This document shows, in pieces, positions 8,181 through 33,010 of a DNA stretch of 64,000 nucleotides (its first letter is position 1; every line of letters starts with the position of its first letter). The DNA is taken from positions 1-64,000 of the forward strand of contig NZ_CP043628.1 in assembly GCF_016804325.1 (NCBI RefSeq), read 5' to 3'. The notes under the pieces were generated by a model. The model had not been told where the DNA came from. It was given only the letters and a program-made list of their open reading frames with translations, and did not search any database. A program made the position numbers and the translations under genes. The DNA comes from Methylobacterium aquaticum. GTDB lineage: Bacteria; Pseudomonadota; Alphaproteobacteria; Rhizobiales; Beijerinckiaceae.

Positions 8181-8223
8181 TAGTATAACTGGTCCTGACC
8201 GACAATGTGCGGATGGGGCTTGA

Positions 8224-9645: not shown

Positions 9646-9713
9646 GAGGGAAGGGGGCAGGTCGATGAAGATGTGACATCGGCCAGAGGTCAGGGACAGG
9701 TTCGGTCCCGTCC

Positions 9714-10187: not shown

Positions 10188-10205
10188 GGCAGCGCCATCC
10201 CCGTG

Positions 10206-10232
10206 TTGACCTTACTATGATGGGAAGGTTCA
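10206..10232. promoter_or_regulatory. CueR box in the cueR/glutaredoxin divergent promoter
   Basis: TTGACCTT, 11 bases, AAGGTTCA: the 27-bp layout of the E. coli copA CueR promoter, with the operator lying in the long spacer after the -35 box (TTGACC). The box lies between the cueR start and the gene at 10329, so CueR probably controls both. Confidence 0.72.
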
Positions 10233-10328
10233 CAACGGTCCGCAACCCTTGACGACCGGGCCCGTCCGCCGTTCCGAACCAGGAGCGCGCAGGGCCAAAC
10301 CGGTCCAACCTCACACCCGGAGCTTCCG

Positions 10329-11702: not shown

Positions 11703-11861
11703 TCATTCGTATAAGGGAGGCTTACGGAACAACGGCGCGATGGACGCAGCCCACGTTTGCTCCCCTAGGACATTTGCAAACCCCGTCTCGATCGTCGCCT
11801 CGCCCGAGAGACCGACCCGCAGCAGCCGAGTGAGCGGCTGGTTCGGGACAATCACGATCTG
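11703..11861 (-). pseudogene. Possible C-terminal remnant of a HlyD/EmrA-like protein
   Basis: A short frame reading PLTRLLRVGLSGEATIETG before a stop resembles the end of HlyD-family adaptor proteins. It is cut off upstream by a stop codon. The surrounding 11079-11907 stretch holds no other supportable gene. Weak evidence. Confidence 0.25.
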
Positions 11862-11907
11862 CACTCAAGCGGCGCGGGACCGGCTCTAACGGCGCGCGAA
11901 TGCGCCT

Positions 11908-12162
11908 CTAAGTCTTCGAAATGATCGCGTAGCGGCCCTCATTGCGAGAGCACGTGGCGCAGCCGCGACGGAGGTACCAGACGAAGCCGATGGCCCCGAG
12001 CACTGCGACAACTCCGGCTAACACGGGCCAGTACGGTGCGATAAACGCGAGTGACACACCTGAGAGAAGAAGGAGAGGCAACCCACAGCAGATGAGGTGC
12101 AGGGCAGCGAAGGCGGCGATCGCGCCGTTCCATTGTTTGCTGTCATTATCTTGCACTTCCAT
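11908..12162 (-). CDS. Small MerT-like membrane protein, 84 aa
   Basis: Two transmembrane helices, the first with LICCGLPLLLLSG, a Cys pair placed as in the first helix of MerT/MerF mercuric transporters, and a cytoplasmic CATC pair after the second helix. Start at 12162 (MEVQDND). An operator-like palindrome lies about 85 bases upstream and resembles the one before the MerA-like reductase at 21912. The IS5-family element inserted just beyond that promoter. Confidence 0.65.
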   Translation of the reverse strand: MEVQDNDSKQWNGAIAAFAALHLICCGLPLLLLSGVSLAFIAPYWPVLAGVVAVLGAIGFVWYLRRGCATCSRNEGRYAIISKT

Positions 12163-12244
12163 GACGATCGCTCTCTTGCACAAAATTCGGCTATACGAAC
12201 TCGACCGTCGTTTCTGGCGAGGGTGTTTCAGAAAGCTAACAAAT

Positions 12245-12261
12245 CTGGAGCCCCTCCAGGT
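12245..12261 (-). promoter_or_regulatory. MerR-family operator-like palindrome before the MerT-like gene
   Basis: CTGGAG, three bases, CTCCAG. On the minus strand the block reads ACCTGGAGGGGCTCCAG followed by ATTTGTT. The same ends (ACCT, CTCCAG, ATTTGTT) recur at the same spacing before the reductase gene at 21947-21963. The layout suits MerR-type promoters with a 19-base spacer. Confidence 0.5.
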
Positions 12262-12289
12262 CCCCGATAAAAAATGACGCGTTTCACTA

Positions 12290-13131
12290 CGGCCTGTTCG
12301 GCCTTGAACGTGTTCCGTGTGCGGGCGTTTTGCTCCTCCTGACTGGGAGGAGTGATGCTGGACGACGCAGAATGGAGAAAGCTGGAGCCGCTGATCGAGG
12401 CATGCCGGCCGAGGGGCAAGACGCCGCCGCAGGATCTGCGTCGCACGATCTCGGCCATCCTCTGGCGGCATCAGAACGGGGCCAAGTGGCGAGCCATCCC
12501 GGCTGAGTTTGGTCCCTGGGCTCGTGCGGCTCAGACCTTCATCCGTTGGGCCCGCCTCGGTGTCTGGGAGCGCCTGCTCCGCCTCGCTCAGCATGCCGGT
12601 GTGCAGCTCGGGATGACGTTCCTCGACGGCACCAGCATCCGTGCCCATCAGAAGGCCGCAGGAGCCCATCGAAAAGGGGCTTACAAGCTGAGCGGGACAG
12701 GCGCGAGGCGCTGGGCCGCTCGCGCGGCGGCTTTGGCAGCAAGGCCTGCGTGATCGCCGACGGTCTCGGTCGCGCGGTCGCCTTCATCTTGGCTCCCGGT
12801 CAAGCCCACGAACTGCCACACGCTATCCCGCTGCTGGACCGTCTGCCAGGCGTGCCCAAGTGGGTGGTGGCCGACCGAGGTTTTGCCAGTCACGCCTTTC
12901 GTGAGCACATCTGGAGCCAGGGTGCACGGCCCGCGATCCCGTCAAAGCGCAACGAAGCTCCCGTCGCCTGCCCGGACTGGATCTACAACAACCGCAACTT
13001 CGTCGAGCGGCTCTGGGCGCGCTTGAAAGAATGGCGTGCCATCGCAACCCGCTACGAGAAGACAGCCTCAAGCTTCATGGGCGTTCTCTCGCTCGCAGCC
13101 GCTCTGGACTGGCTCAAGAGCTAACAGGCCG
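12290..13131 (+). mobile_element. IS5-family insertion sequence, about 842 bp
   Basis: Terminal inverted repeats CGGCCTGTT at the left (12290-12298) and AACAGGCCG at the right (13123-13131), with further partial matches inward. TA flanks both ends (12288-12289 and 13132-13133), consistent with the short target duplication of the IS427 group. It encodes one transposase in two overlapping frames and sits upstream of the MerT-like gene. Confidence 0.85.
12355..13124 (+). CDS. IS5-family (IS427-like) transposase made by -1 frameshift
   Basis: DDE transposase in two frames. Frame A starts MLDDAEWRKLEPLIEACRP and has the DUF4096-type N-terminus and the first catalytic Asp (TFLDGTSIRAHQ). Frame B carries VVADRGFASHAF (second Asp) and NRNFVERLWARLKEWR (Glu). 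The join lies near 12671-12679, where GAAAAGGGG allows the Lys tRNA to slip back one base; the fused product continues KRGLQAERDRREALG. This is the usual expression mode for the group, so I do not count it as damage. Confidence 0.85.
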
Positions 13132-13198
13132 TAATTCGATCGAAGCATCTTTTTGGGATCGCGCTGGCATATCGTGCAGGCTAAACCGATCCGGCGAT

Positions 13199-13762
13199 TC
13201 ACGCTCCGTTGGGGCCGCGCGAGGGCAGTTCAGTCCGGCCGGCCTCCGAATCGGGCGACACGTTCAGGAGACGGTAGAGGCTCTCGGCCGCGAGGGCGGC
13301 CGCGGCTCCATAGACGAGGTGAGCGACAAGACCCCGAACATGCGTAATGTTGGGATAGGCACGGCTCGGCGCGCTGAACCCGAGGGCGGGGGTTAAGGCC
13401 TCGTCCACGATCAAGGACATCGCGGCGCCGGTCACGAAGCCCGCGCCGAGCGGCTGCATCCGGCTTTGGCGCCGCAAGAGGCCGTAGAGCGGCCCCCAGC
13501 CGACGCCCAACCCGTAATGGACCGCCATAGTCGCGAACTTGAGCTTCTGCTGCCCGAGAGGATGCCCAATGGCTTGCATGGTTTTGCGCGCGGCGACCTC
13601 GGGGGGCGGACCAGGCCGAACCGCCTCCTCGGCCTGTTTGACGCTCTCCGGCATGGGTCGGTAGAGCGCCTCCTGGGCGAATTCGGTCACCTTTGTCGCG
13701 ACAAAGCCCGCAGCGAGGCCGATTGCGACATCGACCAGCAAGTTGTCTTTTTGGCTGCCCAT
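13199..13762 (-). CDS. DUF1440-type (YagU-like) inner-membrane protein
   Basis: A 187-aa membrane protein with about four hydrophobic segments. LVDVAIGLAAGFVATKVTEF and the following EALYRPMPESVKQAE match the DUF1440/YagU pattern. Function is unknown in this family. It lies at the end of the mercury region, after the 3' end of the small membrane genes, in the same orientation. Confidence 0.7.
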   Translation of the reverse strand: MGSQKDNLLVDVAIGLAAGFVATKVTEFAQEALYRPMPESVKQAEEAVRPGPPPEVAARKTMQAIGHPLGQQKLKFATMAVHYGLGVGWGPLYGLLRRQSRMQPLGAGFVTGAAMSLIVDEALTPALGFSAPSRAYPNITHVRGLVAHLVYGAAAALAAESLYRLLNVSPDSEAGRTELPSRGPNGA

Positions 13763-13897
13763 GACCGTTCATCTCGCAAGTTGTTCGACCCGCCAAGAAC
13801 ATCCGGCCACTGGGGGCCTGTGATGAAGTGCCGAGAAGTCTCTGGTGCTTGAACGAAGCTGGACCAGCGACAGGTTCCAGGAATTATGATCGCAAAT

Positions 13898-14218
13898 TTA
13901 GAGTAGTGGGGAGGCAGACATCTCGATCTGCTTATCCCAAGCATAGCGCTGGAGCGTGGACCAACGGCGTCGGAGGTAGATTAGCCCGAACCACTGTCCA
14001 AGCATGCTCAAGGTTACGGCCACGCCGACGAGCTTGTAGTGTGCCAGCGCTGGACTGTTGCCGAACCAAGCCGAACCAAGCGCCAGGCTGAAGAGAACTG
14101 CCTTGAGGCGGTTGCCGCACGAGCGACGGACCCCGTCGTCCGGCTGTGGCGATGCCTCGATATGGCCTGCAGGACGGACGACCGGTTTCGGTGAGCCTGC
14201 GCAAGCTGCCCCTGTCAT
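13898..14218 (-). CDS. Small membrane protein with MerT-like helices
   Basis: A 106-aa protein: hydrophilic first 40 residues, then two helices (LKAVLFSLALGSAWFGNSPA and LVGVAVTLSMLGQWFGLIYL) ending in a basic tail. SLALGSAWFGNSPALAHYK parallels SLGVSGAWIGNLTALAPYQ of the merT gene upstream, so it looks like the C-terminal part of a MerT-type transporter. Its ATG overlaps the stop of the gene before it (ATGA). Confidence 0.55.
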   Translation of the reverse strand: MTGAACAGSPKPVVRPAGHIEASPQPDDGVRRSCGNRLKAVLFSLALGSAWFGNSPALAHYKLVGVAVTLSMLGQWFGLIYLRRRWSTLQRYAWDKQIEMSASPLL

Positions 14219-14496
14219 CCGAATTCGCTTCCCCGTCCTGGCGTCGTTGCTGAACACCCGGTTTCGGCTTCCGGCCGAGGCGTACACCGTCGCCCCCGGC
14301 CGCTTATGAAGACGTGAAGCAGAACGAAGGCTCCGGCAGCCGCTGAGGCCACGACGAGCAGGACCATCGACTGGCTCAGCCACGCTACTGTCGCGACAAC
14401 GCCTGACACGAGCGCTGCAGGACCTGCGCAACAGACCACCGTCAGAGGGAATACGAACAAAAACGCTACGAAAGCTGCGACGGGCTTATCGCTCAC
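14215..14496 (-). CDS. Small membrane protein with CCAGP motif, 93 aa
   Basis: GTG start at 14496 preceded by GAGGAGAG. The first helix reads AFVAFLFVFPLTVVCCAGPA, with a Cys pair like that in MerT/MerC first helices, then a second helix and a soluble tail with one Cys. It overlaps the following MerT-like gene by four bases. The two small proteins may together do the job of one mercuric-ion importer; that is inference. Confidence 0.55.
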   Translation of the reverse strand: MSDKPVAAFVAFLFVFPLTVVCCAGPAALVSGVVATVAWLSQSMVLLVVASAAAGAFVLLHVFISGRGRRCTPRPEAETGCSATTPGRGSEFG

Positions 14497-14602
14497 GAAG
14501 TCTCTCCTCGATGTCTGTGATGGGGCGATGACGGCTTCGCGCCCGGGTGTCCCTTGAAGTAGCAATCGGCCGGCAGGGCGGGATCGGCGCTGGCTCGGGA
14601 CA

Positions 14603-15010
14603 TCATCGCGCATCCGTACCGGCTACTCGGAGGATCAGTCCGTCAGGTCCACTCGACAGCAATCGGTAAAAGCAGCTTGCCCGACCCGTATGGCAGCAGG
14701 ACCCATCGCCGCCGACGTTCACCTTCAGCAGAATTGTGTCTTGGTCGCAGTCGACCCACGGCTCCTGGACGTGCTGGATCTGCCCGCTTGTCTCGCCCTT
14801 GTGCCACAGAGACTTGCGCGATCGGCTCCAGTACCAGGCTTCGCCGGTCAGGATCGTCCTGTTCAACGCGTCCGCGTTCATCCAGGCGAGCATGAGCACG
14901 GCTCCGGTCTGACACTCGGTCGCGATTGCCGGGATCAAGCCGGCTTCGTTAAACGCAGGCCTGAGCACCGGGCCTTCTTCAAGCTCGTTCGCGGTTCCGG
15001 CTCCTTGCAC
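14603..15010 (-). CDS. hisI: Phosphoribosyl-AMP cyclohydrolase paralogue (HisI) in the mer operon
   Basis: Histidine-pathway enzyme opening the adenine ring of PR-AMP. The 135-aa length is typical. Metal ligands are intact: DCDQD (Mg site and one Zn Cys) at residues 87-91, CCHTGR at 105-110 and SCFYR at 112-116. The GTG start at 15010 follows GAGGAG at good spacing; the frame stays open upstream into merB. No other his gene is near. It sits directly behind merB, and a second copy lies upstream of merT, so it is probably co-expressed with mercury resistance. Confidence 0.85.
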
Positions 15011-15074
15011 CTGTTTCTTCTCCTCAGCAGGAAAGAGGTCGGCGCCCTCGGAGACGCGCTGCAGGGCGAGGCTC

Positions 15075-15839
15075 TCAAGGCAGCGCGGACACGGGCTCCC
15101 TGAGGATCGGGGCAAAGATCGCGCGACCGAGTTCCAACCCCTCGTTCATGCTCAGCCGAACTCCGGCCCTTGCCGGCTCCTGCCCTTCCAGCCAGCGACG
15201 GAGATGCTCGTCCGAGCAGAAGAACGCGATCGACGGGCAGCAAGAGGAGGCCGCGCTGTCGCCGTAGGCAAAGTCGTACCAGATCACCGCCCCGGCAGGA
15301 GCGACGCTGCCCAGCTTGCGGCCTTGGTCCGTCGTGACGACGCTGATCGTCTCCCCGCAGGATCGGCACTGCGCCTGGACCCTGATGTCCGTCCGATACA
15401 TGTCCCCAACGCCAAGCGCGTCGATCGCGCAAAGGGCGCTGAGAACATGCCGACCGAAACCAACCCGGTGCCCGGTTTCGCTTTCCGTGAACGGGTAGGC
15501 GTGCCGGATCTTATCGGACTCGTTTTCGAGGCCGACAAGGTCGCGCAACTGCAGCTTGCGCAGCAATGCGCCGACCCGGTCACTGGGGATGCCCGTATCG
15601 CCGGCAAGGTCCGCCGCTTGGGGAGGCCGGCCCATGGTGGCGTATCGCTTTAAAATATTCCGCCACACCAGATCCTCGTCGGGATCCAGGGCGTGCGACC
15701 ACTTGTCGAGCAGGCCAGCACGTGCCGACATACGCCCGCTCAGCGCATTGCGGGCGGCCGGGGTTGTCACGGCGGACCAGTCCGGCCGCACCACGCCCGG
15801 CCTGATCTCGGTCGCGAGCTCTTCCGCTTTTGCGACCAT
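15075..15839 (-). CDS. merB: Alkylmercury lyase
   Basis: Cleaves the carbon-mercury bond of organomercurials and hands Hg(II) to MerA. With the start at 15839 ([12 protein letters not shown], preceded by GGAGA) it has 254 aa. The catalytic set is present: Cys137 and Asp140 in LCAIDAL, matching Cys96/Asp99 of the R831b enzyme, and Cys200-Cys201 in [10 protein letters not shown], matching Cys159. A further Cys pair (QCRSCGET) corresponds to the structural Cys117 region. It follows merA by 38 bases. Confidence 0.9.
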
Positions 15840-15877
15840 TCCGTCTCCGTCGCCCGCGCAAGCGTCTTGCCCCGGCA

Positions 15878-17317
15878 TCAACCGGCGCAACACGAAAGCC
15901 TCTTCACGTCCCGATCGAAGGTCTGAGCCGCGAGTTTCAGGCCCTCGACCGTGGTCAAATACGGAAAGATCGTCTCGGCCAAATCGTCGATCGTGAGCCC
16001 ACCGCGTATCGCCATTGCGGCGGTCTGGATGCTGTCGGCCCCCTCGGGTGCTACGATGTGGCTTCCCAGAAGCTTGCGGGTCCCCCGGTCGGCGACGAGC
16101 TTGATCAGACCGCGCGTGTCACGAGCCGCAAGCGCCCGCGGCACATTGTCGAGCGAGAGCACCGAAGTGCGAACGTCGTGCCCGGCAGCACGGGCCTGGG
16201 CTTCAGTGAGCCCAACGCTTCCGACCTGCGGGTCCGTGAACACCACGGCCGGCATCACCCTGTTGTCGTAGCGCAGGCTGTCACCGTTGAGGGCGTTCTT
16301 GGCGGCCAGTTTCGCGCCGTAGGCCGCCATGTAGACGAACTGGTCCTTGCCGGTCACGTCACCCGCCGCGTAGACGCCCAGCTTCGAGGTGCGCATGCGG
16401 TCATCGACCACGATGGCGCCCGTCGGCGTCTGGGCCACACCCGCTTCCGCGAGGCCGAGGCTCTCGGTGTTGGCCGAACGCCCGGTCGCGACGACGATTT
16501 GCTCGGCCGTGACCGTCTCGCTGCGTCCGTTTCGTCGGACCGTGAGGCTCACGCCTTCCTCCGTTCGGCGCACGGCCTCGTAGGCAAGGTCGCCCAGGAC
16601 CGTGATGCCTTCTTCCGCTAAGTAGCCGGCGAGCGCCGCGCCAATCTCAGGCTCTGCCTCGGGCAGAAGCCGGCTGCGGAATACAAGGGTCACCGCGACC
16701 CCGACCCGTGCGAACATCTGCGCAAGCTCCGCACCGATGTAACCGCCGCCCAATACGATCATCGAACGCGGCAGCTGAGTCAGCGCAAGAGCTGCCGTGC
16801 TGTCGAGAGCCGACACCTCCGCGATGCCCGATATGGCTGGTAGGGCCGGGCGTGTACCGGTGGCGATGATGATGCGGTCCGCGGAGAAACGTTGGCCACC
16901 GGCCTCGACCCCGCCTTCGACCAGGCGCGCCTCGCCCTCGTGGTAGGCCACGTTGTTGTAGGCCGGCAGAAGGTCGGCATACTTCGCATGCCGCAGGCCC
17001 TCGACCAAAGCATCTTTCTGGGCAACCTGTGCACGCCAGTCGACCACCCGCGCCTCACCCTGGACGCCTTCGAAGCGGGTGCTGGCGGCGTTGGCGTGAT
17101 GCACGGCTTCCGCAGCCCGGATCAGGGCTTTCGACGGGACGCAGCCCACGTTCACGCAGCTGCCGCCAATCGTCCCGTATCCGATGAGGGCGACCTGTGC
17201 GCCCTGCTCGGCCGCCGTGATCGCGGCCGAGAACCCAGCCGACCCGGCGCCGACGACGACGAGGTCGTAGCGGCCCTTGCCGTCGCTCTCGCGCTGAGTG
17301 TTGCAGCAATCGCTCAT
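15878..17317 (-). CDS. merA: Mercuric reductase
   Basis: Flavoprotein reducing Hg(II) to volatile Hg(0) with NADPH. Of 479 aa; the N-terminal HMA domain (NmerA) found in many relatives is missing. VVVGAGSAGFSAA binds FAD, the redox pair is Cys54/Cys59 in GGSCVNVGC, VLGGGYIGAELAQ binds NADPH, and the C-terminal substrate pair is in LSCCAG. A CC pair near the N-terminus (MSDCCNTQ) may partly replace NmerA. The ATG overlaps the merF stop. Confidence 0.95.
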   Translation of the reverse strand: MSDCCNTQRESDGKGRYDLVVVGAGSAGFSAAITAAEQGAQVALIGYGTIGGSCVNVGCVPSKALIRAAEAVHHANAASTRFEGVQGEARVVDWRAQVAQKDALVEGLRHAKYADLLPAYNNVAYHEGEARLVEGGVEAGGQRFSADRIIIATGTRPALPAISGIAEVSALDSTAALALTQLPRSMIVLGGGYIGAELAQMFARVGVAVTLVFRSRLLPEAEPEIGAALAGYLAEEGITVLGDLAYEAVRRTEEGVSLTVRRNGRSETVTAEQIVVATGRSANTESLGLAEAGVAQTPTGAIVVDDRMRTSKLGVYAAGDVTGKDQFVYMAAYGAKLAAKNALNGDSLRYDNRVMPAVVFTDPQVGSVGLTEAQARAAGHDVRTSVLSLDNVPRALAARDTRGLIKLVADRGTRKLLGSHIVAPEGADSIQTAAMAIRGGLTIDDLAETIFPYLTTVEGLKLAAQTFDRDVKRLSCCAG

Positions 17318-20568: not shown

Positions 20569-21912
20569 TCACAGCATGTATCCGATATCTGAGGATCCGG
20601 TTGGATAGGCGAACATCGTGGATTTCAGATCGTCGGCCGTCAGCCCATGCCGGATCGCCAGGGCGAAGACGTTGATGGTCTCGTCCACGTGCGGGCCAAC
20701 GAGATGGGCTCCCAGGATGCGCCCGGTCCCTTCCTCGACCACCGTCTTGTAGCCGTAGACCCGTTCGGCTTCGCGCCGCGCCGTGAACCAGCCCGAGGTG
20801 AACTCGGACTTGATGCGGACGCGCAGGCCGCTCTCCCGAGCTGCGGCTTCCGACATGCCGACCGCTGCGATGGGAGGCGAGGTGAAGGCGACACTCGGCA
20901 CGCCCGTGTAGTCCGGCTTCGCGTGATTGCCTTCGAGCAGGTTGGCGGCGGCGACCTTCGCATCGTGACTCGACACGGGCGTAAGCGGCGGCCCGACCAG
21001 CGCGGCATCCCCGGCCGCGTAGATCGCGGGGTTCGTGACGCTCTGAAGGTACTCGTTCAGCTTGAGCCGTCCGTGCTCGACCGTGACATCGGCGGTGGCC
21101 AGATTGAGCTTGTCGAGCGCGGGCCTGCGCCCGGCTGCGTGGACGACGAGATCGGCTTCGAAGGTCTCCTGGCCCGCGTCGGAGGATGCCTCGACCCGGA
21201 AGATGTCACCAGCCCGCTGGATCGCCGTGACGGTCGTCCGGGTGCGCACATCGACGCCCATCCCGTCGAACGCTTTCATGAGCCAACCGACGAGATCGGG
21301 GTCGAACTGCAGGAGCATCCGCTCTCCCCGCTGAAGCACCGTGACTTGTGCCCCGGCTCGTGCCGCGATGCGCGCGAACTCGGCCGCGATGTAGCCGCCA
21401 CCGACAAGGACGATGCGAGACGGTAGGTGCTCCAGAGCAAGGAACTCCTCGCTCGTCGCCAGATGCTCCTCGCCAGGAATGCCGAGTGGCACCGGCACTG
21501 CCCCAGCCGCGATCAGGATGTGCCGTGCCTGGATCGCCGTTCCGGCGACATCGAGCGTGGTGCGGCCCGTGAACCGGGCCTCGCCGTGGAAAGTGTCGAT
21601 GTCCTTGTCGGCATACCGGTGCTCGTTCTTCACCGGCACCGGATCTGTGAAGGTGCGCTTGAAGGCGATCAGGTCAGGCCAGTCGATCCGCACATCTCCG
21701 ACGATGCCATGACCGCGCATTCGCCCTGCGGCGTCGATCACCTCGGCTCCCGCGATGAGCATCTTCTTCGGGTCGCAGCCCCGAAGTGCGCAGGTGCCGC
21801 CGAATGGCTTGTGGTCAATCACGGCGACATTCCAGCCTGCACCACGAACACGCATGGCCGCGACCATGGCCGCCGTGCCGGTGCCGATGATCGCGAGATC
21901 ATAGATTTTCAT
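20569..21912 (-). CDS. MerA-like pyridine nucleotide-disulfide reductase
   Basis: A 447-aa FAD/NAD(P)H oxidoreductase. LAIIGTGTAAMVAAM binds FAD, the redox pair is Cys41/Cys46 in GGTCALRGC (not the CVNVGC of MerA), IVLVGGGYIAAEFARI binds the nicotinamide cofactor, and VVHAAGRRPALDKLNL and YAAGDAAL are family motifs. The C-terminus ends SDIGYML with no Cys pair, so it is not a standard mercuric reductase. A glutathione- or other thiol-reductase role in mercury stress is plausible. Its upstream operator resembles that of the MerT-like gene at 12162. Confidence 0.82.
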   Translation of the reverse strand: MKIYDLAIIGTGTAAMVAAMRVRGAGWNVAVIDHKPFGGTCALRGCDPKKMLIAGAEVIDAAGRMRGHGIVGDVRIDWPDLIAFKRTFTDPVPVKNEHRYADKDIDTFHGEARFTGRTTLDVAGTAIQARHILIAAGAVPVPLGIPGEEHLATSEEFLALEHLPSRIVLVGGGYIAAEFARIAARAGAQVTVLQRGERMLLQFDPDLVGWLMKAFDGMGVDVRTRTTVTAIQRAGDIFRVEASSDAGQETFEADLVVHAAGRRPALDKLNLATADVTVEHGRLKLNEYLQSVTNPAIYAAGDAALVGPPLTPVSSHDAKVAAANLLEGNHAKPDYTGVPSVAFTSPPIAAVGMSEAAARESGLRVRIKSEFTSGWFTARREAERVYGYKTVVEEGTGRILGAHLVGPHVDETINVFALAIRHGLTADDLKSTMFAYPTGSSDIGYML

Positions 21913-21946
21913 GTCGGGTACTCCAGCATTCTGAAGGACAACAAAT

Positions 21947-21963
21947 CTGGAGTTGGTATAGGT
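21947..21963 (-). promoter_or_regulatory. MerR-family operator-like site before the MerA-like reductase
   Basis: On the minus strand, ACCTATACCAACTCCAG followed by ATTTGTT, with the same ends and spacing as the site at 12245-12261. GGAACC just upstream could be the -35 box with a 19-base spacer. Confidence 0.48.
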
Positions 21964-22231
21964 TCCGGGCGATTACATTCTGCCTTTTGCGCTGGACACC
22001 GTCATCGACGTTCTCAAGGCCTCGGTCACGGCCTTTCTCTTGTCGGTCGGCGGGTGCGCCCGGCTCTGGTTGAGGTCCGCAGACGTCGGCCCGCATCGTC
22101 ATCGTCGCCCCGCCCCGTGTCTGCGAACGCTCGCGAGATCGAAGCAGGGCCGACAACGTTCTGCACCTGCCTATCATTTCGTGCCACGACCCCGTGTTCA
22201 GGATTTAAAGGGCGTAAGGCAGGGAGACACG

Positions 22232-23443
22232 TTATCCTCGGGCTTCCGTGGCTGGCCGGGTCTCTGCTCGGAAGAGCCGGATTGCGGTGATGGCAAGCGC
22301 CAGTTCCGCGGCCGCGAACAGCGCCAGGGCAATCCCGAAGTCGTAGCGAAGCGCCCAGCCGAAGAGCAGGCTGCCCACTCCAAACCCGACGAAGAGGAGA
22401 CAGACGTTCAGGCCCATGGCCTGCCCCGGGCGCTTGCCGCCGAACGCCGTGACGATGCCGGCGAGGAGGGGCTGGGTCATGTCGTAGCCGAGGGATAGGA
22501 CCGTCACCGCCAGCGCCGCCGGGAGCAGGGGCGCGTCGAGGATCAGCGCCGCCGCCGCGAGCGAACCCAGGAGGAGCCCAAGCGGCAGGAGGCGGCCGCG
22601 GCCCTGCCGATCCGCCATCCGGCCGATGAACGGGCCGAGCAGGAGCCCAGGAATGCCGTAACCCAAGAGGGCGAGGCCGACCCCCATTGGACCTAGGCCG
22701 TAGCGTCGCTCGAAATACAGCCCGAGCCAGGTGAACACGCCGGAGTGGAACATCGAGTTCAGCAGGACGGTGGCGTAGGTGCGCCGCCCGCGTGAGGAAG
22801 CCAGAAGATCCCGATACCCGCGTACCAACATACCGAGGCTTGCCGCGTTCGACGTTGCGCCTGGGATGATTCCGCGGGCCGGTATGAGAACGAACAGGAT
22901 CGCCGCCCCTGCCGCCCCGACGGCCAGGAAGAGGCCGCGCCATCCGAGATAGGGTTCGAGCAGCGCGCCGAAGGTCGATCCGAAGGCCATGCCGCCGGCC
23001 ATGGCGCCGAAGAGCCAGCCGAGGGGGCGCCCGCGTCGCTCGTAGGGGAAAAGCCGGGCGACGAGGACGAGCGCCAGCGGAACGACGCCGCTCGCCCCGA
23101 GCCCGGTCAGTACCCGCCAAAACGCGAGTTGCTCGACGGACCCAGCCGTGGTGGTCAGGACGCTCAGTACGGCGAAGGCCGTCAGGGAGGCCGCCATGAT
23201 GCGCCAGATGCCGAGGCGGTCCGCCAGGAGGCCGTAGACCAGCGTCGCCACCCCGTACGGGACCAGATAGGCCGGCACGATCAGGCCGACCCTCTCCGGC
23301 GAGGTCCCGAACGCCGCCCCGAGCTGCGGCAGGATCGGGGCGACCATGAACGCCTGGAAGAAGATGACGAAGGTGGCGGCCGCAAGCAGCCGAAGCAGGC
23401 GCTCCAGCTGGATATCCGGCAAGTCGGGTGTCGCTGACATCAT
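22232..23443 (-). CDS. MFS permease in the metal operon
   Basis: A transporter of about 403 aa with roughly twelve hydrophobic segments. YLVPYGVATLVYGLLADRLG carries the MFS loop 2-3 motif, and FGGKRPGQAMGLN and GRMADRQGRGRLL are later loop motifs. Substrate unknown. It is the last gene of the operon led by the MerR-HMA regulator, and its start overlaps the stop of the HMA gene by four bases. Confidence 0.85.
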   Translation of the reverse strand: MMSATPDLPDIQLERLLRLLAAATFVIFFQAFMVAPILPQLGAAFGTSPERVGLIVPAYLVPYGVATLVYGLLADRLGIWRIMAASLTAFAVLSVLTTTAGSVEQLAFWRVLTGLGASGVVPLALVLVARLFPYERRGRPLGWLFGAMAGGMAFGSTFGALLEPYLGWRGLFLAVGAAGAAILFVLIPARGIIPGATSNAASLGMLVRGYRDLLASSRGRRTYATVLLNSMFHSGVFTWLGLYFERRYGLGPMGVGLALLGYGIPGLLLGPFIGRMADRQGRGRLLPLGLLLGSLAAAALILDAPLLPAALAVTVLSLGYDMTQPLLAGIVTAFGGKRPGQAMGLNVCLLFVGFGVGSLLFGWALRYDFGIALALFAAAELALAITAIRLFRAETRPATEARG

Positions 23444-23685
23444 GCCCGGGCCTCCTCGCTCTCGAACCCTTTGTCCGCGAGGGCCGACCGGATCTCTGCA
23501 GGCCCGACCCGGGACGGCTCGAAGCGGACGGAGGCACGCTTGCGCCGGGCGCTGGACTTCGCCTGCCGGACGCCGGGTACGGCCAGGAGCGCGTCCCGCA
23601 CCTTCTCGGCGCAGCCGTCGCACATCATGCCCGGCACGGACAGCGTGACCTCCGTGAGAGGGGCGTTCGTGTCGTTGCTCATCAT
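23440..23685 (-). CDS. Small cytoplasmic HMA-domain metallochaperone
   Basis: An 81-aa protein consisting of one HMA domain: VPGMMCDGCAEKVRDALLAV with the CxxC metal site, then the usual second half ending GFESEEARA. Start chosen at 23685, preceded by GGAAG. No signal peptide. Probably passes metal to the ATPase at 24737 or to the regulator. Confidence 0.82.
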   Translation of the reverse strand: MMSNDTNAPLTEVTLSVPGMMCDGCAEKVRDALLAVPGVRQAKSSARRKRASVRFEPSRVGPAEIRSALADKGFESEEARA

Positions 23686-23697
23686 GACTTCCAAGGT

Positions 23698-24378
23698 TCA
23701 GACAAGGTCCGCGTAGACCTGGGCGTAGTAGGCGCCGACCATGAGAAGGGCCCCGCCGCTGAAGATTTGCAGGGTCCGGCCCCATAGGCCGAGGCGCGCC
23801 AGCCGCGTGACGGCCCCTCCGGCCACCCCAGCGGCCAGGAACGGCAGACCCCGGCCGAGGCCGAACACGAAGGCGAGCAGGATGCCCCGTCCCAGGTCCC
23901 CGTCAGACGCGGCGACCGTAAGCAGGAGAAGCAGGGGCGCCACCGAGGTGCCGACGCTGAACACCAGCCCGTAGGCGAAGGCGCCGAAGAGGCCGGGCCG
24001 GCGCCAGGCGGTGAGACCGTCGATGCGCATCCGGGGCCACAGGAACGCCAGCAGCGCCGACGCGAACGAGAGGAGGGCCATGAAGAGGGCCCAACCCCTG
24101 CCGAACGCCTCGGTGGCCAGGGCGCCGAGATGGCCCGCCACCGCTCCGAGAACGGCGAGGCTCAGGACGATTCCGGCGAAGAAGGCTCCGGCGACCTGAA
24201 GCCCTGAGCGTCGCGATCCGGCCTCGGAGGCGCTCGCCACGCTGGCGAGGCCGAGCCCCACCGGTAGCGTGCAGGGGCAGACCGCGCTGGCCAGGAGCCC
24301 CGCCAGGAAGGTGACCCACAGCGCCGCGGGTCCGCCAACGCCGGACGCGAGCGGCTGGATCAGTCCTTCGAGCGTCAC
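23698..24378 (-). CDS. CcdA/DsbD-like membrane thiol-electron transporter
   Basis: A 226-aa protein with six hydrophobic segments. The first helix ends in SAVCPCTLPVGLGLASVASA, the Cys-Pro signature of CcdA/DsbD-beta, and GRGLPFLAAGVAGG matches the later half. These proteins carry reducing power across the membrane. In this operon it may keep the Cys pairs of the periplasmic MerP-like protein reduced; that is inference. Confidence 0.8.
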   Translation of the reverse strand: MTLEGLIQPLASGVGGPAALWVTFLAGLLASAVCPCTLPVGLGLASVASASEAGSRRSGLQVAGAFFAGIVLSLAVLGAVAGHLGALATEAFGRGWALFMALLSFASALLAFLWPRMRIDGLTAWRRPGLFGAFAYGLVFSVGTSVAPLLLLLTVAASDGDLGRGILLAFVFGLGRGLPFLAAGVAGGAVTRLARLGLWGRTLQIFSGGALLMVGAYYAQVYADLV

Positions 24379-24722
24379 GGTTCGAGAACCGGAGTGCCGG
24401 GCTTATAGCCGAGGCCGACGATGGCGGTGCTCACCCGGCCGAGGAGAAAGACCTTTCCGGACGCGTAGGTTACGCGGAGCGAACGGTGGACGAAGTCGAT
24501 CTCGGCGTCGGTGACCCCGTCGACCTTCCTGACGGCCTTCTTGATGGAGGCGGCACAGGAAAGGCAGACCATTCCTTCGACCGGGATGGTCGCGACCTTT
24601 AGGCCGGTGGCCCGCACCGACATGGGCGGCGGATCCTCGACGGCTTGCGCCAGGTTTGCCGTCACGAGCGACATCAAGGCGGCGGAGAGCGCAGCGGCCA
24701 CGCCCGAACGCTGGTTTTTCAT
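24375..24722 (-). CDS. Periplasmic MerP-like HMA protein
   Basis: A 115-aa secreted protein. Start at 24722 preceded by GAGGAG; signal peptide MKNQRSGVAAALSAALMSLV ending at ANLAQA. The HMA motif is VEGMVCLSCAASIKKAVRKV. It overlaps the CcdA-like gene by four bases. Confidence 0.83.
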   Translation of the reverse strand: MKNQRSGVAAALSAALMSLVTANLAQAVEDPPPMSVRATGLKVATIPVEGMVCLSCAASIKKAVRKVDGVTDAEIDFVHRSLRVTYASGKVFLLGRVSTAIVGLGYKPGTPVLEP

Positions 24723-24736
24723 CGAGTGAGCTCCTC

Positions 24737-27187
24737 TCAGGTCAGGTTGCTGCGTGACGCCTCGGGCACGTGACCGACGTTCATGATCGCGCCGAGGAAG
24801 AGGCCCGGTTGTCCCCAAAGCGAGTTGAGGAAGATCGCGGTGACGCTGACAGCCATGGCGACCATCGCCCAGATCGGGTTGACCAGGCCGGTGGCGGCCA
24901 CCGGGATGCCGATCCCGTTGAAGGCGAAGGCCAGCCAGACGTTCTGGAGCATCTTGGCGTAGCTGCGGCGGCTGATCCGGCGAGCGACCGGTAGGGCTGC
25001 AAGGCGGTTCGACAGGATGATGATGTCGGCGGCCTCGATGGCGATCTCCGTGCCGCCGCCCATGGCGATGCCGACGTTGGCCTGCATCAGCGCAGGGGCG
25101 TCGTTGATGCCGTCGCCGACCATCGCGACCTTGCCCAAGACCTGGAACCCACGAACGATCTCGGCCTTGCCGTCGGGCAGCACCCCGGCATGGACCTCGT
25201 CGATGCCCGCTTCTGCGGCGATCCGACGTGCGGCCCGCTCGTTGTCTCCGGTGAGGAGAACCGTCCGCAGGCTCTCCTTGCGCAGGGCCGCGATGGCCTG
25301 CACGGCATCGGCGCGTAGCCTGTCGTCGAGGGCAAGCAGGCCGAGTAGGCGCCCGCCGCGTCCCACCACGATGACGGTGCGCCCAGCCTCTTCCAGGGCA
25401 CCGATGCGGAGCCGGGCGAACGAGAGGTCGATACCTTCGCCGGAAAGGAAGGCGGGGCTGCCGACCAGCACGTCGCCATCCCCGATCCGGGCTACGACCC
25501 CCTTGCCCGGAATAGCCTCGAACGCGTCGACCTCCGGAGGCACGGCACCGTGCCCAAAGGCGGCCTTGACCACGGCTTGGGCTAACGGGTGCTCGGAGGA
25601 GGCTTCGGCCGCGGCGGCGAGGGCCACGAGCTCGGCCTCGGTGCCTGCAAACGCCTCAACCTCGCGAACCACGGGCCGGCCCTGGGTTAGGGTCCCGGTC
25701 TTGTCGAGCACGATGGTGTCGACGAGGCGGTAGCCCTGGAAGGCCTCGCCCGTCCGCATCAGGATGCCGTGCCCAGCGGCCTCTCCGGCACCCCGCACGA
25801 TGGAGAGCGGGGCCGAGATGCCGACCGCGCACGGGTATCCCATCACCAGGACGCTGAGGCCCGCGAACACGGCCCGCGCGATGTCTGCCTCACCACCGAG
25901 GAGCCAGGTGCCGGTAAGCCAACCCGTGAAGGCGAGTGCGGCCACCATGAGCACGGCCGGGGTGTAGACCTGCAGCACCCGGTCGACGAGATGGAGCAGG
26001 CCGGGCTTGAGGGCGCGGGCGTCCTCGACCTCGCGGATGACCTTCTGCAGGAAGCTCCCGGCCCCGACCGCCGTCACGCGAACCAGCAGGGTGCCGGTGC
26101 CGTTGATCGAGCCGCCGATGACAGCGTCGCCTTCGGTGCGTTCGACCGGGATGGGCTCGCCGGTCACGAGGGCCTGGTCGACGGCGGAGCGCCCAGAGGC
26201 AACTGTGCCGTCGACGGGTACACGCTCCCCGGGGCGGATGCGGACGAGGTCGCCAACCGTCACCGCTTCCAGCGGAAGGTTCTGCTCCAGGCCGTCTCGG
26301 ACCACGCGGGCAGTCTCGGGTTGTAGGTCCAGGAGGCGCTTGACGGCTTGCGAGCTGCGCGTCTTGACGATGAGCGACAGCCACTCCGAAAAGATGTGGT
26401 AGGTCACGACCATCACCGTGACAGCGAAGAACGGGGCCGTCGGGTAGCCCGGCTGGTCGAGTACGAGCCCGATCACGCCGCCGGCCATGCCCGCGAAGGC
26501 GCCGATCTCCAGCAGGGCATGCTGATTGAGGATGCCCCGGCGCAGGGCCTGGAAGGCCATGTGCAGGATGTGGCGCCCGACCCCGAAGACGAGGATCACG
26601 GCTAGCGCCGCGACGAGCCAGGGTGCAGACCTAGTGAGGTAGCCCTGCAGGTTCAGGTAGAGCAGGCCCAGCGCCAGCGCGGTCAATCCGGCGGTGCTGG
26701 CGACGGCAGCCACGAGGCTCGTCTTCTTCAGGACGAGGAACACCATCGCGCCGAGGCTGATGCAAACCAGAGCGGGCAGGTAGCCGATCCAGCCGAGTGT
26801 CGGATCCGCGATGATGGGGATGGAGGCGACGCTCAGGGAGACCGCGACTACGAAGCGGCGGCTCTCACGGACGAGGTCCTGCTCCTCCTCCTCGTAGGGC
26901 CGGACCTTACGCGGGTCCGAGATCGTGTAGCCGATGTCGCGCAGGATCCCGAGCAACGCCGCAGGGCGGGCGACGGCCGGATCGTACTCGACGAGCGCCT
27001 GCTCGTGCGTCAGGCTGACGGCGACGTGGTCGACGCCGCGCTGGCTGCCGAGCGCCTTCTCGATGGTGCCTGTGCAGAGCGAGCAGTGCAGGCCGCCGAT
27101 CCTGGCGCGGATGCGGGCTCGGTCGGGCCGGCTGGCCGGTTCCTCGCTCCAAAGCGGCGGTTCCAGATCGAGCATCGCTGAGGCCAT
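24737..27187 (-). CDS. P1B-type heavy-metal ATPase with YPC in place of CPC
   Basis: An 816-aa P-type ATPase. An HMA domain at the N-terminus has Cys35 and Cys38 (LHCSLCTG). Actuator motif TGEP at 342-345, phosphorylation motif DKTGT at 495-499, and GDGINDAPAL near the end are intact. The membrane metal motif reads GYPCAVG (451-453), where the first Cys of the common CPC motif is Tyr. This removes one thiolate ligand, so metal choice may differ from ZntA or CopA. It is flanked by a MerR-HMA fusion and by thiol-handling proteins. Substrate unknown. Confidence 0.9.
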   Translation of the reverse strand: MASAMLDLEPPLWSEEPASRPDRARIRARIGGLHCSLCTGTIEKALGSQRGVDHVAVSLTHEQALVEYDPAVARPAALLGILRDIGYTISDPRKVRPYEEEEQDLVRESRRFVVAVSLSVASIPIIADPTLGWIGYLPALVCISLGAMVFLVLKKTSLVAAVASTAGLTALALGLLYLNLQGYLTRSAPWLVAALAVILVFGVGRHILHMAFQALRRGILNQHALLEIGAFAGMAGGVIGLVLDQPGYPTAPFFAVTVMVVTYHIFSEWLSLIVKTRSSQAVKRLLDLQPETARVVRDGLEQNLPLEAVTVGDLVRIRPGERVPVDGTVASGRSAVDQALVTGEPIPVERTEGDAVIGGSINGTGTLLVRVTAVGAGSFLQKVIREVEDARALKPGLLHLVDRVLQVYTPAVLMVAALAFTGWLTGTWLLGGEADIARAVFAGLSVLVMGYPCAVGISAPLSIVRGAGEAAGHGILMRTGEAFQGYRLVDTIVLDKTGTLTQGRPVVREVEAFAGTEAELVALAAAAEASSEHPLAQAVVKAAFGHGAVPPEVDAFEAIPGKGVVARIGDGDVLVGSPAFLSGEGIDLSFARLRIGALEEAGRTVIVVGRGGRLLGLLALDDRLRADAVQAIAALRKESLRTVLLTGDNERAARRIAAEAGIDEVHAGVLPDGKAEIVRGFQVLGKVAMVGDGINDAPALMQANVGIAMGGGTEIAIEAADIIILSNRLAALPVARRISRRSYAKMLQNVWLAFAFNGIGIPVAATGLVNPIWAMVAMAVSVTAIFLNSLWGQPGLFLGAIMNVGHVPEASRSNLT

Positions 27188-27220
27188 CGGGTTGTCTCCA
27201 GACCACGTCGGATGAGCAGA

Positions 27221-27889
27221 TCAGGCCGGGTCGCGCGCCACGACGCGAAAGCCGCGCTTCTCGATCAGCGCGACGAGGCGGTCCTCGCTGGTGGTCGCGG
27301 GGTCGTAGAGAACGCGGGCGCGTCCCTCCTCGAACGAGACGTCGACGCTGCGGACGCCGGCATGGGCGTCCAGCAGCGAGCCGACCGAGGCGGCGCAGGA
27401 CGCGCATCGCAGGCCCACGACCTTCAGGGTGACGGTCTTCATGGTGGTGTCCTCTCTCGGTTCGTCGCATCCGCACGGCACTGGTCCGTGCTTCGGATCT
27501 TCCAGGGCTTCCAGGATGGTGCATCCCTCCAGGCCGCCGTGCCCGGGGCAGGAGGCGACGACCGCCTCCAATGCTGCGCGGACCCGCAGCAGCTCGGCGA
27601 TCCTCTCGTCCACCACGGCGATCTTATGCTCGGCCTGGGCGCGCACCTCCGCGCAGTCGGCGTTCGGGTTGGCGCGCAGGGCCAGGAGCTCCCGCGTCTC
27701 CTTCAGGGAGAACCCGATCCCCTGGGCCTGCCGTATGAAGCGGATGCGGGCGACCACCTCAGGTGCGTAAGTCCGGTATCCGGCCCCCTTGGCTGGCTGC
27801 TCGATCAAGCCCTTACGCTCGTAGAAGCGGATGGTCTCTACGCCTACGCCGGCGTCCCGGGCCGCTTTCCCAATGGTTAGATCCCTCAT
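27221..27889 (-). CDS. MerR-family regulator fused to a C-terminal HMA domain
   Basis: Start chosen at 27889 (MRDLTIG), giving 222 aa; the frame is open to 27913. Residues 1-135 are a MerR-type regulator with Cys79, Cys114 and Cys123 as likely metal ligands and a CGC cluster at 139-141. Residues 150-222 are an HMA domain (GLRCASCAASVGSLL, Cys162/Cys165). Met150 (ATG at 27440-27442) has AGAGGAC ten bases upstream, so a free HMA peptide could also be made. The promoter overlaps its own start, suggesting autoregulation. It leads the operon down to 22232. Confidence 0.85.
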   Translation of the reverse strand: MRDLTIGKAARDAGVGVETIRFYERKGLIEQPAKGAGYRTYAPEVVARIRFIRQAQGIGFSLKETRELLALRANPNADCAEVRAQAEHKIAVVDERIAELLRVRAALEAVVASCPGHGGLEGCTILEALEDPKHGPVPCGCDEPREDTTMKTVTLKVVGLRCASCAASVGSLLDAHAGVRSVDVSFEEGRARVLYDPATTSEDRLVALIEKRGFRVVARDPA

Positions 27890-27926
27890 CGCCGTTCCCG
27901 TCATCGTAACCACTCCATCACCCTAC

Positions 27927-31112: not shown

Positions 31113-31505
31113 TCAGCGTACCAGCTCGACCGTCACGCCGACGGCTTCGTCCAGCTTCGCCCAGGCCTGGTCCGCCGTCAGGGCGGTGAGGCCCTTCGAT
31201 TTCGCCAGCGCTAGGCAGGCGCGGTCGCCGAATGAGAGGCCTGCCTGGCGCGTCGCCTGCCGCAGTGCGCCGCCGTCGACAGCCTGCGCGCGATCGAAGT
31301 CGACCACCGTGAGGTGCAGGTGCTCGAGCGCCCGGCTGATCGACGCGACGACAGCACCGCGCTCCACAAGCTTGGCAACCACCTCCGAGTAGTTGACCGC
31401 GGAGATGGCCGCTTCGGCCAGCGCGGAACGGACGCGATCCTGTCCCTCTTCCTGGTTGAGGAGGCAGAGCAGGGCCGAGGCGTCCAAAGCGTATCTCATG
31501 GCCAT
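31113..31505 (-). CDS. vapC: VapC toxin, PIN-domain ribonuclease
   Basis: PIN-domain RNase toxin of about 130 aa. Acidic active-site residues: the Asp in ALDASALL, the Glu in VNYSEVVAKL, the Asp in LSFGDRACLALAKS and the Asp in LTADQAW. Starts at 31505 or 31499 are possible; the gene begins a few bases after the vapB stop, so they are coupled. Confidence 0.9.
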   Translation of the reverse strand: MAMRYALDASALLCLLNQEEGQDRVRSALAEAAISAVNYSEVVAKLVERGAVVASISRALEHLHLTVVDFDRAQAVDGGALRQATRQAGLSFGDRACLALAKSKGLTALTADQAWAKLDEAVGVTVELVR

Positions 31506-31509
31506 GGTC

Positions 31510-31758
31510 CTACTCTTTGGCCGCTTCGGCACGCCGGTCAGCGATCAGCTCATCGGACAAGCAGACACCCTCTGGAACCAGGCCGCGAACGAGCTTCTGG
31601 ATCTCGGCAATGGCAGCATCGCGCGATCGGACCCGAAGCTCGCCATCTACCATTTCCATGACAACGGTATCGCCGACCTGAAGCCCCATCTCCCGTCGGA
31701 AGCTGGCAGGGATCACGAGCTTCCCCCCATCGACGATTTTGGATGCGCGCGACTCCAT
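31510..31758 (-). CDS. vapB: VapB antitoxin, AbrB-type
   Basis: An 82-aa antitoxin. The N-terminal swapped-hairpin DNA-binding domain reads SKIVDGGKLVIPASFRREMG; the C-terminal tail (EIQKLVRGLVPEGVCLSDEL) would wrap VapC. Start at 31758 (MESRASKI). The pair lies next to the recombinase gene and would serve plasmid maintenance. Confidence 0.88.
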   Translation of the reverse strand: MESRASKIVDGGKLVIPASFRREMGLQVGDTVVMEMVDGELRVRSRDAAIAEIQKLVRGLVPEGVCLSDELIADRRAEAAKE

Positions 31759-31877
31759 GGCGTTCCTCTTTGGTTGAGTACCAGATGGATGTTTATACCA
31801 GGCGCGCTGCCAGCGCCAGGTTTTCGGACCCAGTCGCCTTCTCGGCCCAAAACGGAACACCGTTCTGAGTTGCTTGA

Positions 31878-31911
31878 TTGTGACCGATAACACCATCTAT
31901 CGGTCACAATT
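31878..31911. other. lox-like recombination site, 13-8-13 bp
   Basis: Perfect 13-bp inverted repeats ATTGTGACCGATA (31878-31890) and TATCGGTCACAAT (31899-31911) around an asymmetric 8-bp spacer ACACCATC. Total 34 bp, the loxP architecture. The palindrome stops exactly at these limits on both sides. It lies 37 bases before a Cre-like recombinase gene. From memory, the arm end (GTG-CCGATA) resembles that of the SloxP site recognised by SCre. An alternative is an operator for vapBC or for the recombinase. Confidence 0.7.
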
Positions 31912-31948
31912 AGTAGATCGTTAAGGCCCGGCCGGGTAGGCTCCGCCC

Positions 31949-33010
31949 ATGGACCTCGATCGCGCCGACCCGACCCCGGAACCCACCCACGAGGCGCCAG
32001 CCCTGCCGGTCCCGCTCCCCGCAGGCCTCCCGCCCGCCAACGAGATCCTGATCGAGCGGTTGGAGGGCTACGCCCGCGCCGCACGCGGTGCCTTCGCCGA
32101 CAACACGGTCCGGGCCTTCGCCGCCGACAGCCGGATCTTCGCCGCCTGGTGCCGGGAAAACGACCGGACGATGCTGCCGGCGACCCCGGAGACGATCGCC
32201 GCCTTCATCGACGCCCAGGCCGACATCAAGTCCCGCGCGACGGTCGAGCGCTACCGCTCATCCATCGCCGCGCTGCACCGGGCCGCGGGCCTGCACAACC
32301 CATGCGCCGACGAGATCGTCCGGCTCGCGATCAAACGCATGAACCGGACCAAGGGCCGGCGCCAGAAACAGGCCGAACCGCTCAACCGCACCAGCATCGA
32401 CCGCATGCTCGCCGCGAAAACCACCGAGCGCCTGCACCGGCGCGTAGCAGAGGGTGAGCAAGGGGCTCCACTGATCGCGCTCCGCAACACCGCCCTGGTG
32501 GCGGTCGCCTACGATACGCTCTTGCGCCGCTCCGAACTCGTGTCCCTGGAGATCGGAGACTTGGAACGCGGCGCCGACGGCTCCGGCACGATCCTCGTGC
32601 GGCGATCCAAGGCCGACCAGGAGGGCGAAGGCGCGATCAAGTACCTGGCGCCCGACACCATGGCGCATGTCGAGGCGTGGCTCACCGCGGCTGGGTTGGA
32701 GAGCGGGCCGCTGTTCCGGCCGTTGACCAAGGGCGGCAAGGTCGGGGCGAGCGCGCTCGGGGACAGGGACGTGGCGCGGGTATTCCGCAATCTTGCTGCG
32801 GCGGCCGGGCTGAAGCTCACGCGTCTCCCCTCTGGGCATTCGACCCGGGTCGGGGCGACGCAGGACATGTTCGCGGCAGGCTTCGAGCTGCTCGAGGTTA
32901 TGCAGGCCGGCTCGTGGAAGACACCCGCGATGCCAGCGCGCTACGGAGAGCGGCTTAGAGCGCAGCGTGGCGCGGCACGGAAGCTTGCGACACTGCAAAA
33001 CAGAGCTTGA
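31949..33010 (+). CDS. Cre-like tyrosine recombinase
   Basis: A 353-aa tyrosine recombinase, close to the length of P1 Cre (343 aa). Catalytic residues: Arg193 (YDTLLRRSEL), Lys221 (RRSKAD), His297 and Arg300 (SGHSTRVGA), Trp323 (AGSWKT) and Tyr332 (ARYGERL). The His-Arg, His-Trp and Trp-Tyr spacings (3, 26, 9) equal those of Cre. The N-terminal half also aligns: DNTVRAFAADSRIFAAWCRE against the Cre helix ending SWAAWCKLNNR. The likely job is resolving plasmid dimers at the lox-like site just upstream. Confidence 0.9.
   Translation: MDLDRADPTPEPTHEAPALPVPLPAGLPPANEILIERLEGYARAARGAFADNTVRAFAADSRIFAAWCRENDRTMLPATPETIAAFIDAQADIKSRATVERYRSSIAALHRAAGLHNPCADEIVRLAIKRMNRTKGRRQKQAEPLNRTSIDRMLAAKTTERLHRRVAEGEQGAPLIALRNTALVAVAYDTLLRRSELVSLEIGDLERGADGSGTILVRRSKADQEGEGAIKYLAPDTMAHVEAWLTAAGLESGPLFRPLTKGGKVGASALGDRDVARVFRNLAAAAGLKLTRLPSGHSTRVGATQDMFAAGFELLEVMQAGSWKTPAMPARYGERLRAQRGAARKLATLQNRA

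Follow-up and report, generated by a model that had tools for sequence, protein, structure and literature searches.

Organization of the locus and its host replicon

The locus comprises a gene for a Cre-type tyrosine recombinase, a 34-bp candidate recombination site directly upstream of this gene, and, on the opposite strand, a divergent pair of genes resembling those for AbrB/VapB-type antitoxins and VapC-type toxins (Table 1). Over part of its length, the antitoxin gene matched annotated AbrB/MazE/SpoVT genes at the DNA level (68-71%). An AbrB/VapB-type neighbor is present at several homologous loci as well; this gene is a neighbor that lies outside the recombination system. Passages of an earlier study of rhizobial repABC plasmids (PMC10194956) also note a Cre-like recombinase near a toxin-antitoxin pair.

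Table 1. Features of the recombinase locus, in window coordinates
Feature	Position	Strand	Basis or remark
VapC-type toxin gene, divergent neighbor	31113..31532	-	ORF; 67% DNA match (part of query) to annotated VapC
AbrB/VapB-type antitoxin gene, divergent neighbor	31510..31758	-	ORF, start chosen at 31758; DNA match to annotated genes
Left 13-bp arm	31877..31889	+	ATTGTGACCGATA; base 1 is the onset of conservation across 34 loci
Asymmetric 8-bp spacer	31890..31897	+	ACACCATC; presumed strand-exchange region
Right 13-bp arm	31898..31910	+	TATCGGTCACAAT; half-site adjoining the recombinase gene
Conserved 38-bp block from site to start codon	31911..31948	+	Mean 1.23 bits, 34 loci
Cre-type tyrosine recombinase gene, 353 aa	31949..33010	+	phmmer versus Cre; Pfam PF00589; catalytic residues aligned

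The window, that is, the whole stretch of DNA analyzed here, is the first 64 kb of contig C2 (146,795 bp). The ends of C2 overlap by 16.56 kb (window 1-16557 versus C2:130236-146795) with 99.94% identity (1 mismatch, 7 gap openings), so that the contig represents a circular plasmid of about 130.2 kb left untrimmed in the assembly, and features near the start of the window are therefore doubled in the record. Genes for a ParA-type ATPase and a RepB protein are located close to the start of the contig. A Pfam search with ten large ORFs of C2 identified ParA, RepB, ParB_N, ArdC, a serine recombinase, and a cadherin/Ig-repeat protein, and 4 of the 10 ORFs had no match. The serine recombinase is a large one (479 aa, Resolvase and Recombinase domains, C2:83676-85115). 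A RepC-family match at C2:127720-128249 is split (model positions 1-120 and 116-173) and reflects either a pseudogene or an indel error; small frame breaks on C2 may be assembly errors. Inspected by eye, the regions flanking the recombinase gene (window 20569-27913 and 36646-56678) contain ORFs resembling mercury or heavy-metal resistance and efflux genes, among them a MerR-like regulator, P-type ATPases, and RND pumps.

A Cre-type recombinase with a perfect 13-8-13 palindrome upstream

The recombinase matched Cre in a phmmer comparison with an E-value of 1.6e-29 over residues 42-346. This span includes the N-terminal half, for which the earlier note, made from the sequence of this DNA alone, had claimed a resemblance to Cre, and the similarity runs through both the N-terminal core-binding and the C-terminal catalytic domains. 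Among Pfam models, PF00589 scored above the cut-off and PF02899 slightly below it (21.3 versus 22.3 bits). All seven active-site residues of Cre are aligned with identical residues of the protein (R193, E196, K221, H297, R300, W323, and Y332), and the alignment bears out the Cre-like spacings of the catalytic residues that had been read from the sequence (His-Arg 3, His-Trp 26, Trp-Tyr 9).

The whole site, ATTGTGACCGATA-ACACCATC-TATCGGTCACAAT, occupies 34 bp at 31877-31910, in the divergent intergenic region 31759-31948. The perfect 13-8-13 palindrome with an asymmetric spacer that the earlier note had described upstream of the recombinase gene is indeed there; the start it gave (31878) is one base too late, and the gap between the end of the site and the ATG at 31949 is 38 bases, not 37. 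Only one perfect 13-bp inverted repeat with a gap of 5-10 bp is found on the 146,795-bp contig, and it is this site; the chance expectation for such a repeat in the 64-kb window is about 0.006 (64,000 positions x 6 gap lengths / 4^13). At 0 mismatches, the arm occurs twice in the window, both times within this site. The genome (7.28 Mb, five contigs) contains one site and one recombinase of this kind, and neither the site search nor looser patterns detected extra copies of the site elsewhere in it. A chance origin of the palindrome was rejected, given that it recurs beside homologues of the recombinase gene.

The conserved 38-bp block between the site and the start codon probably carries the recombinase promoter. 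We infer this position, because no match to the sigma-70 consensus was found upstream of the recombinase gene.

Site and gene are linked across Methylobacterium and Methylorubrum

A tblastn search of plasmid records yielded matches in 3,081 of these, 13 of them 80-90% identical to the query and all 13 from Methylobacterium or Methylorubrum. We examined these 13 plasmids, H14, and H16, together with 43 loci from a scan of species genomes. Close homologues (79-92% identical, from the same two genera) are preceded by such a site at nearly always the same offset: in all 35 intact close homologues, the window included, it lies at -72 to -39 from the start codon, with the site of one locus, L028, shifted by one base. 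At these 35 loci the site follows the pattern ATTnnnnnnGATA-A(T/C)N6-TATCnnnnnnAAT or a one-letter variant of it.

Within 111 genomes of the genus, the strict pattern was found at 23 distinct places in 19 genomes, compared with none for a reversed-pattern control, and all 23 strict sites lie exactly 38 bases before a homologue of the recombinase gene. Conversely, the protein search identified 27 homologous loci in 21 of these genomes: 23 with a strict site, 3 with a one-letter variant (two Methylobacterium nodulans copies with ATC for ATT, and L028 with one outer base altered), and 1 damaged locus, L113. At least 20 genomes contain arms of this class. Outside the genus, a looser pattern without the fixed A gave one match each in 3 of 60 genomes, and its reversed control gave 1 in 60; the three matches were taken as background.

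Among the 13 complete homologous plasmids, 12 have exactly one site. The 13th (L009, pMaq22A_2p) carries the recombinase gene in three frames and retains the right arm, with the left arm reduced to the inner GATA; the frames could be sequencing errors, and the altered left arm is independent of these. In L113, the gene has a 73-bp deletion, and, by our reading of the sequence, 9 bases between GATA and TATC replace the spacer. Thus, both near-full-length damaged copies have abnormal sites, and the intact copies have normal ones. Palindromy is lower at many homologous sites (down to 8/13), so perfect symmetry is either not required or not maintained.

Among the observations that the earlier note had named as speaking against its reading are homologues without the palindrome, and a palindrome that accompanies vapBC in the absence of the recombinase. 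Close homologues do carry the site, and no strict site without a recombinase was found among the 111 genomes. A VapC is annotated in the 4-kb flanks of 7 of the 13 plasmid copies (the PLSDB annotation being incomplete), and 5 of the 6 copies without one keep the site. The palindrome follows the recombinase rather than vapBC, and its interpretation as a vapBC element was dropped.

Conservation profile and covariation of the right arm with the enzyme

Conservation was quantified on 34 intact loci, a set that omits L018 (whose gene and flanks are those of L019), the two damaged copies L009 and L113, four fragments (L036, L043, L051, and L056), a partial second copy found in L006, and additional loci duplicating genome places already represented. 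Information averages 0.21 bits over the 60 upstream bases, 1.41 over the left arm, 0.99 over the spacer, 1.43 over the right arm, and 1.23 over the following 38 bases, and the sharp rise coincides with the start of the left arm. All 34 loci have the same outer AT and inner GATA in their two arms; the arm positions between them vary, positions 4-8 most.

Variation in the right arm is associated with residue 273 of the recombinase, which is R in the protein of this plasmid and aligns with R259 of Cre. All 9 loci whose residue 273 is R, Q, or S carry C at right-arm position 8, as does one of the two loci with K, whereas none of the 23 loci with G or A does. At right-arm position 6, the base is G wherever the residue is R, K, Q, or S (11 of 11 loci) and C wherever it is G or A (23 of 23). 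The right arm of the G273 clade is ATTTCCCGCGATA. For Cre/loxP, passages of a published study (PMC7438526; numbering converted here) describe a bidentate bond of R259 to the G opposite the C at arm position 8. More distant enzymes tend to agree with this pattern in the sequences compared: R occupies the Cre R259 position in the 371-aa protein of Shewanella sp. ANA-3 and in that of Flagellatimonas, each with C8 in both site arms, VCre has K and C8 in both arms, and the Acetobacter protein has Y and G8 in both arms. The Lichenicola protein has M, and its site has C8 in one arm and G8 in the other, a neutral case.

The covariation is largely a split between clades, and shared ancestry can explain much of it; by mutual information, a measure confounded by ancestry, residues such as N31 and R5 reach scores as high as that of R273. 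No such association with residue 273 holds for the left arm, where C stands at position 8 not only in all 11 loci with R, K, Q, or S but in 12 of the 23 with G or A. Left half-sites swapped by recombination, or a loose requirement on the left side, would explain this mismatch. Distance correlations over 35 loci fit a decoupling at the site (gene versus right arm, 0.57; left arm, 0.31; spacer, 0.12; 60-base left flank, 0.01), with the reservation that they use ungapped gene identity and that the rows of L022, which is one codon shorter, are wrong, so we do not rest the case on them.

Mosaic junctions and spacer diversity

One change point was fitted for each of the 36 pairs of loci with an alignable left flank; these pairs are not independent, and positions are counted from the first base of the site, +34 being the first base past it. 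The lnLR was at least 10 in 15 of the 36 pairs, with the left part more alike in 8 and the right part in 7. The two strongest change points of the 36 are those of L006/L012 and L008/L011. In L006/L012, identity is 99.5% to the left of an identical site and 86.6% to the right, with the change at +35..+49. In L008/L011, it drops from 99.5% to 88.5% at -2..+14, at the left spacer edge, from which point the two spacers also differ. Constraint on the gene cannot account for either step, and we infer a crossover by this enzyme as the cause of both junctions.

For the remaining six left-alike pairs, the change point lies 89-189 bases upstream of the site (L002/L021 at -189, from 98.5% to 85.5%; L020/L021 at -180; L027/L093 at -176; L003/L012 at -104; L002/L034 and L021/L034 at -89), at or downstream of the antitoxin start. 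These changes may come from weaker constraint between the genes and lend no support to crossover at the site. The right-alike pairs change at +18 (L023/L025, support 0..206), +35 (L002/L020, 9..160), +51 (L013/L014, 51..75), +128 (L033/L111), +190 (L011/L024), +207 (L008/L024, 20..233), and +366 (L006/L090), for which constraint on the gene is a possible cause. The L013/L014 pair consists of co-resident genes on the M. nodulans plasmids pMNOD02 and pMNOD01 that are about 99% identical, with less similar sites and left flanks (91.8% over the left 600 bases), as if the gene had been copied across and the spacers had been kept apart.

The spacers of the 34 loci fall into 21 types. The spacer ACACCATC recurs at L011 and L022, whose left arms differ. 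Identical spacers are shared by 21 of 561 pairs, compared with 3.5 expected from 5,000 column shuffles (p = 0.0002), and this excess indicates that spacers are kept or moved as units. The spacers differ in all six pairs of copies co-resident in one strain (L002/L003, L013/L014, L017/L019, L021/L022, L023/L027, and two copies on one G013 contig), an outcome expected by chance about 80% of the time given 21 identical pairs out of 561 overall.

Predicted function

The main claim of the earlier note, a Cre-family recombinase with its own adjacent site, is upheld by the fixed offset, the boundaries of conservation, the joint decay of site and gene, the variation of the right arm, and the two mosaic junctions. 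In this enzyme family, a single Cre-type enzyme acting on one site of a circular plasmid resolves plasmid dimers, and the replicon described here is circular and has a single copy of the site, as dimer resolution requires. We therefore have good confidence in the prediction that the locus is a self-contained Cre/lox-like system on the ~130-kb plasmid, most likely for dimer resolution, which is the likely selected function. Under this model, each plasmid has one site, and homologous recombination would generate a plasmid dimer with two directly repeated sites, the substrate of the reaction. Each of the four 13-bp arms in this pair of sites would be bound by one recombinase protomer; Y332 would cleave at the edges of the spacer, and strand exchange across its 8 bp would restore monomers for segregation. 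Rarely, the enzyme would probably also catalyze exchange between plasmids, linking the upstream DNA of one plasmid to the site and recombinase gene of another. Autoregulation is possible as well, because the site borders directly on the conserved block next to the gene. The large serine recombinase of the plasmid (about 83.7-85.1 kb on the contig) could perform resolution of its own.

Plasmids of the genus might also share a single class of cassette whose right arm is matched to the enzyme and whose spacer serves as an identity tag, such that plasmids with the same spacer would exchange upstream modules through the site and spacer diversification would keep co-resident plasmids from fusing; we put this extension forward tentatively and consider it rather improbable. 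The differing spacers of the six co-resident pairs agree with it, and the finding that just 2 of the 8 left-alike pairs change at or beside the site makes it slightly less probable. Less likely still is that exchange or fusion between plasmids, by module shuffling or cointegration, is the main role and dimer resolution a secondary one. The pairs L006/L012 and L008/L011, in which almost identical left parts give way to diverged recombinase genes at the site or next to it, would be expected under this scenario, as would the excess of identical spacers, some of which occur with quite different arms and unrelated upstream flanks. However, resolution calls for just such an arrangement, a single site per plasmid beside the gene; a fusion made through one site can be reversed and yields no selectable product on its own; most left-alike pairs change well upstream of the site; and the number of spacer types would limit exchange.

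Dimer resolution also has to be weighed against a regulatory role, in which the palindrome would be mainly an operator or promoter element for the recombinase gene or the divergent vapBC pair and no recombination site at all. AbrB-type antitoxins generally bind palindromes near their own promoters, and the location of the site, in the divergent intergenic region and directly upstream of the conserved block, is compatible with such binding. However, the 13-8-13 form, the variability of the spacer, and the association of the right arm with residue 273 fit a recombinase target, the site persists at the five plasmid loci that lack an annotated flanking VapC, two mosaic junctions coincide with it, it decays together with the recombinase gene, and there is no sigma-70 promoter match, all of which makes a purely regulatory palindrome distinctly unlikely.

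Cre and Dre come from P1-like phages, and 29 of 50,697 records in a phage collection match the recombinase, all below 60% identity, most of the matches listed being of the P1 or D6 type. A phage-plasmid recombinase that, like P1 Cre, circularizes incoming linear DNA in addition to resolving dimers nevertheless appears very improbable here, considering that none of these records holds a close relative, that the ten large C2 ORFs sampled include no phage structural family, and that 5 of the 13 homologous plasmids are typed as conjugative.

Relationship to known Cre/lox systems

Comparison of the protein with known recombinases, as the earlier note had suggested, gave 32% identity to VCre, 31% to the 371-aa recombinase of Shewanella sp. 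ANA-3 plasmid 1, which we take to be SCre, 30% to Cre, and 29% to Dre. SCre is thus not the closest protein relative among these enzymes. Closer relatives outside the genus, among those compared, are encoded on Lichenicola, Flagellatimonas, and Acetobacter plasmids (42-49%).

The site, in contrast, resembles SloxP, which has the same 34-bp 13-8-13 layout. Each SloxP arm matches the arm described here at 10 of 13 bases, including the inner CCGATA, and its spacer likewise begins with AC, although the spacers are otherwise unlike. The SloxP 34-mer matches plasmid NC_008573 of Shewanella sp. ANA-3 at 100%, and the statement of the earlier note that the SloxP arms share the GTG-CCGATA end is correct. 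In both systems, moreover, the residue equivalent to Cre R259 is arginine and position 8 of the arm is C; they differ in arrangement, the ANA-3 recombinase gene lying about 4.2 kb from SloxP compared with 38 bases here. Thus, judged by sequence, the site belongs with the SloxP-like sites, and the protein is not specially close to SCre.

Cre of phage P1 is related to the protein over nearly its full length, has the same seven active-site residues, and acts on one 34-bp site of the same layout. In P1, however, about 0.42 kb of DNA with another gene and promoters separates cre from the upstream loxP, and the loxP arms are unrelated to those described here except at single positions. VCre/VloxP of the Vibrio plasmid p0908, whose recombinase is presumably VCre, and Dre/rox of phage D6 are likewise single-recombinase systems; the site is located about 0.43 kb upstream of the gene in the former, with one small gene in between, and about 0.15 kb upstream in the latter, and the arms of both VloxP and rox are unlike those of the present site. 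Jelicic et al. in 2023 reportedly also dealt with Cre-type enzymes. A literature search, mostly of openly accessible papers, retrieved no description of this Methylobacterium system. Passages of one report (PMC4957104) indicate that Nigri/nox and Panto/pox were found in the same manner, from a Cre-like gene and a nearby 13-8-13 palindrome.

On these comparisons, the locus would be a further member of the known Cre/lox class. Its site is not private to this plasmid, because the site class is spread over the genus with many spacers, and any orthogonality to the known systems, which the earlier note had considered possible, would depend mainly on the 8-bp spacer, because the arms recur across genomes and resemble SloxP. 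What the locus contributes is a well-supported Cre-type enzyme together with its predicted cognate site; the 34 intact enzyme-site pairs, many with differing arms, provide raw material on DNA choice by such enzymes and a series that could yield new recombination tools. To judge from the two mosaic junctions, lox-like sites in nature may in addition act as points of exchange between plasmids.

SloxP-like stretches (83-91% identity over 85-100% of the 34 bases) were also observed on Methylocystis, Sphingomonas, and Falsirhodobacter plasmids and in Nocardia (NZ_CP089213.1:57376-57407), in the last case with no recombinase annotated within 2.5 kb. The wider family comprises 26 further loci, most of them distant homologues and 4 of them a damaged copy or fragments of close ones. 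No such site was seen at 16 of the 26, some of which have little upstream DNA. GATA-N8-TATC is present within 700 bases upstream of the match at 6 (Lichenicola, Acetobacter, Flagellatimonas, two Sphingobium, and one alphaproteobacterial MAG), and the damaged L113 described above is a further one of the 26. Three others (L050, L049, and L045, from Negativicoccus, Microvirga, and a Pimelobacter MAG) have a palindrome matching at 11-13 of 13 positions in which GATA and TATC are 9 bases apart, and these may represent a sister group with a longer spacer.
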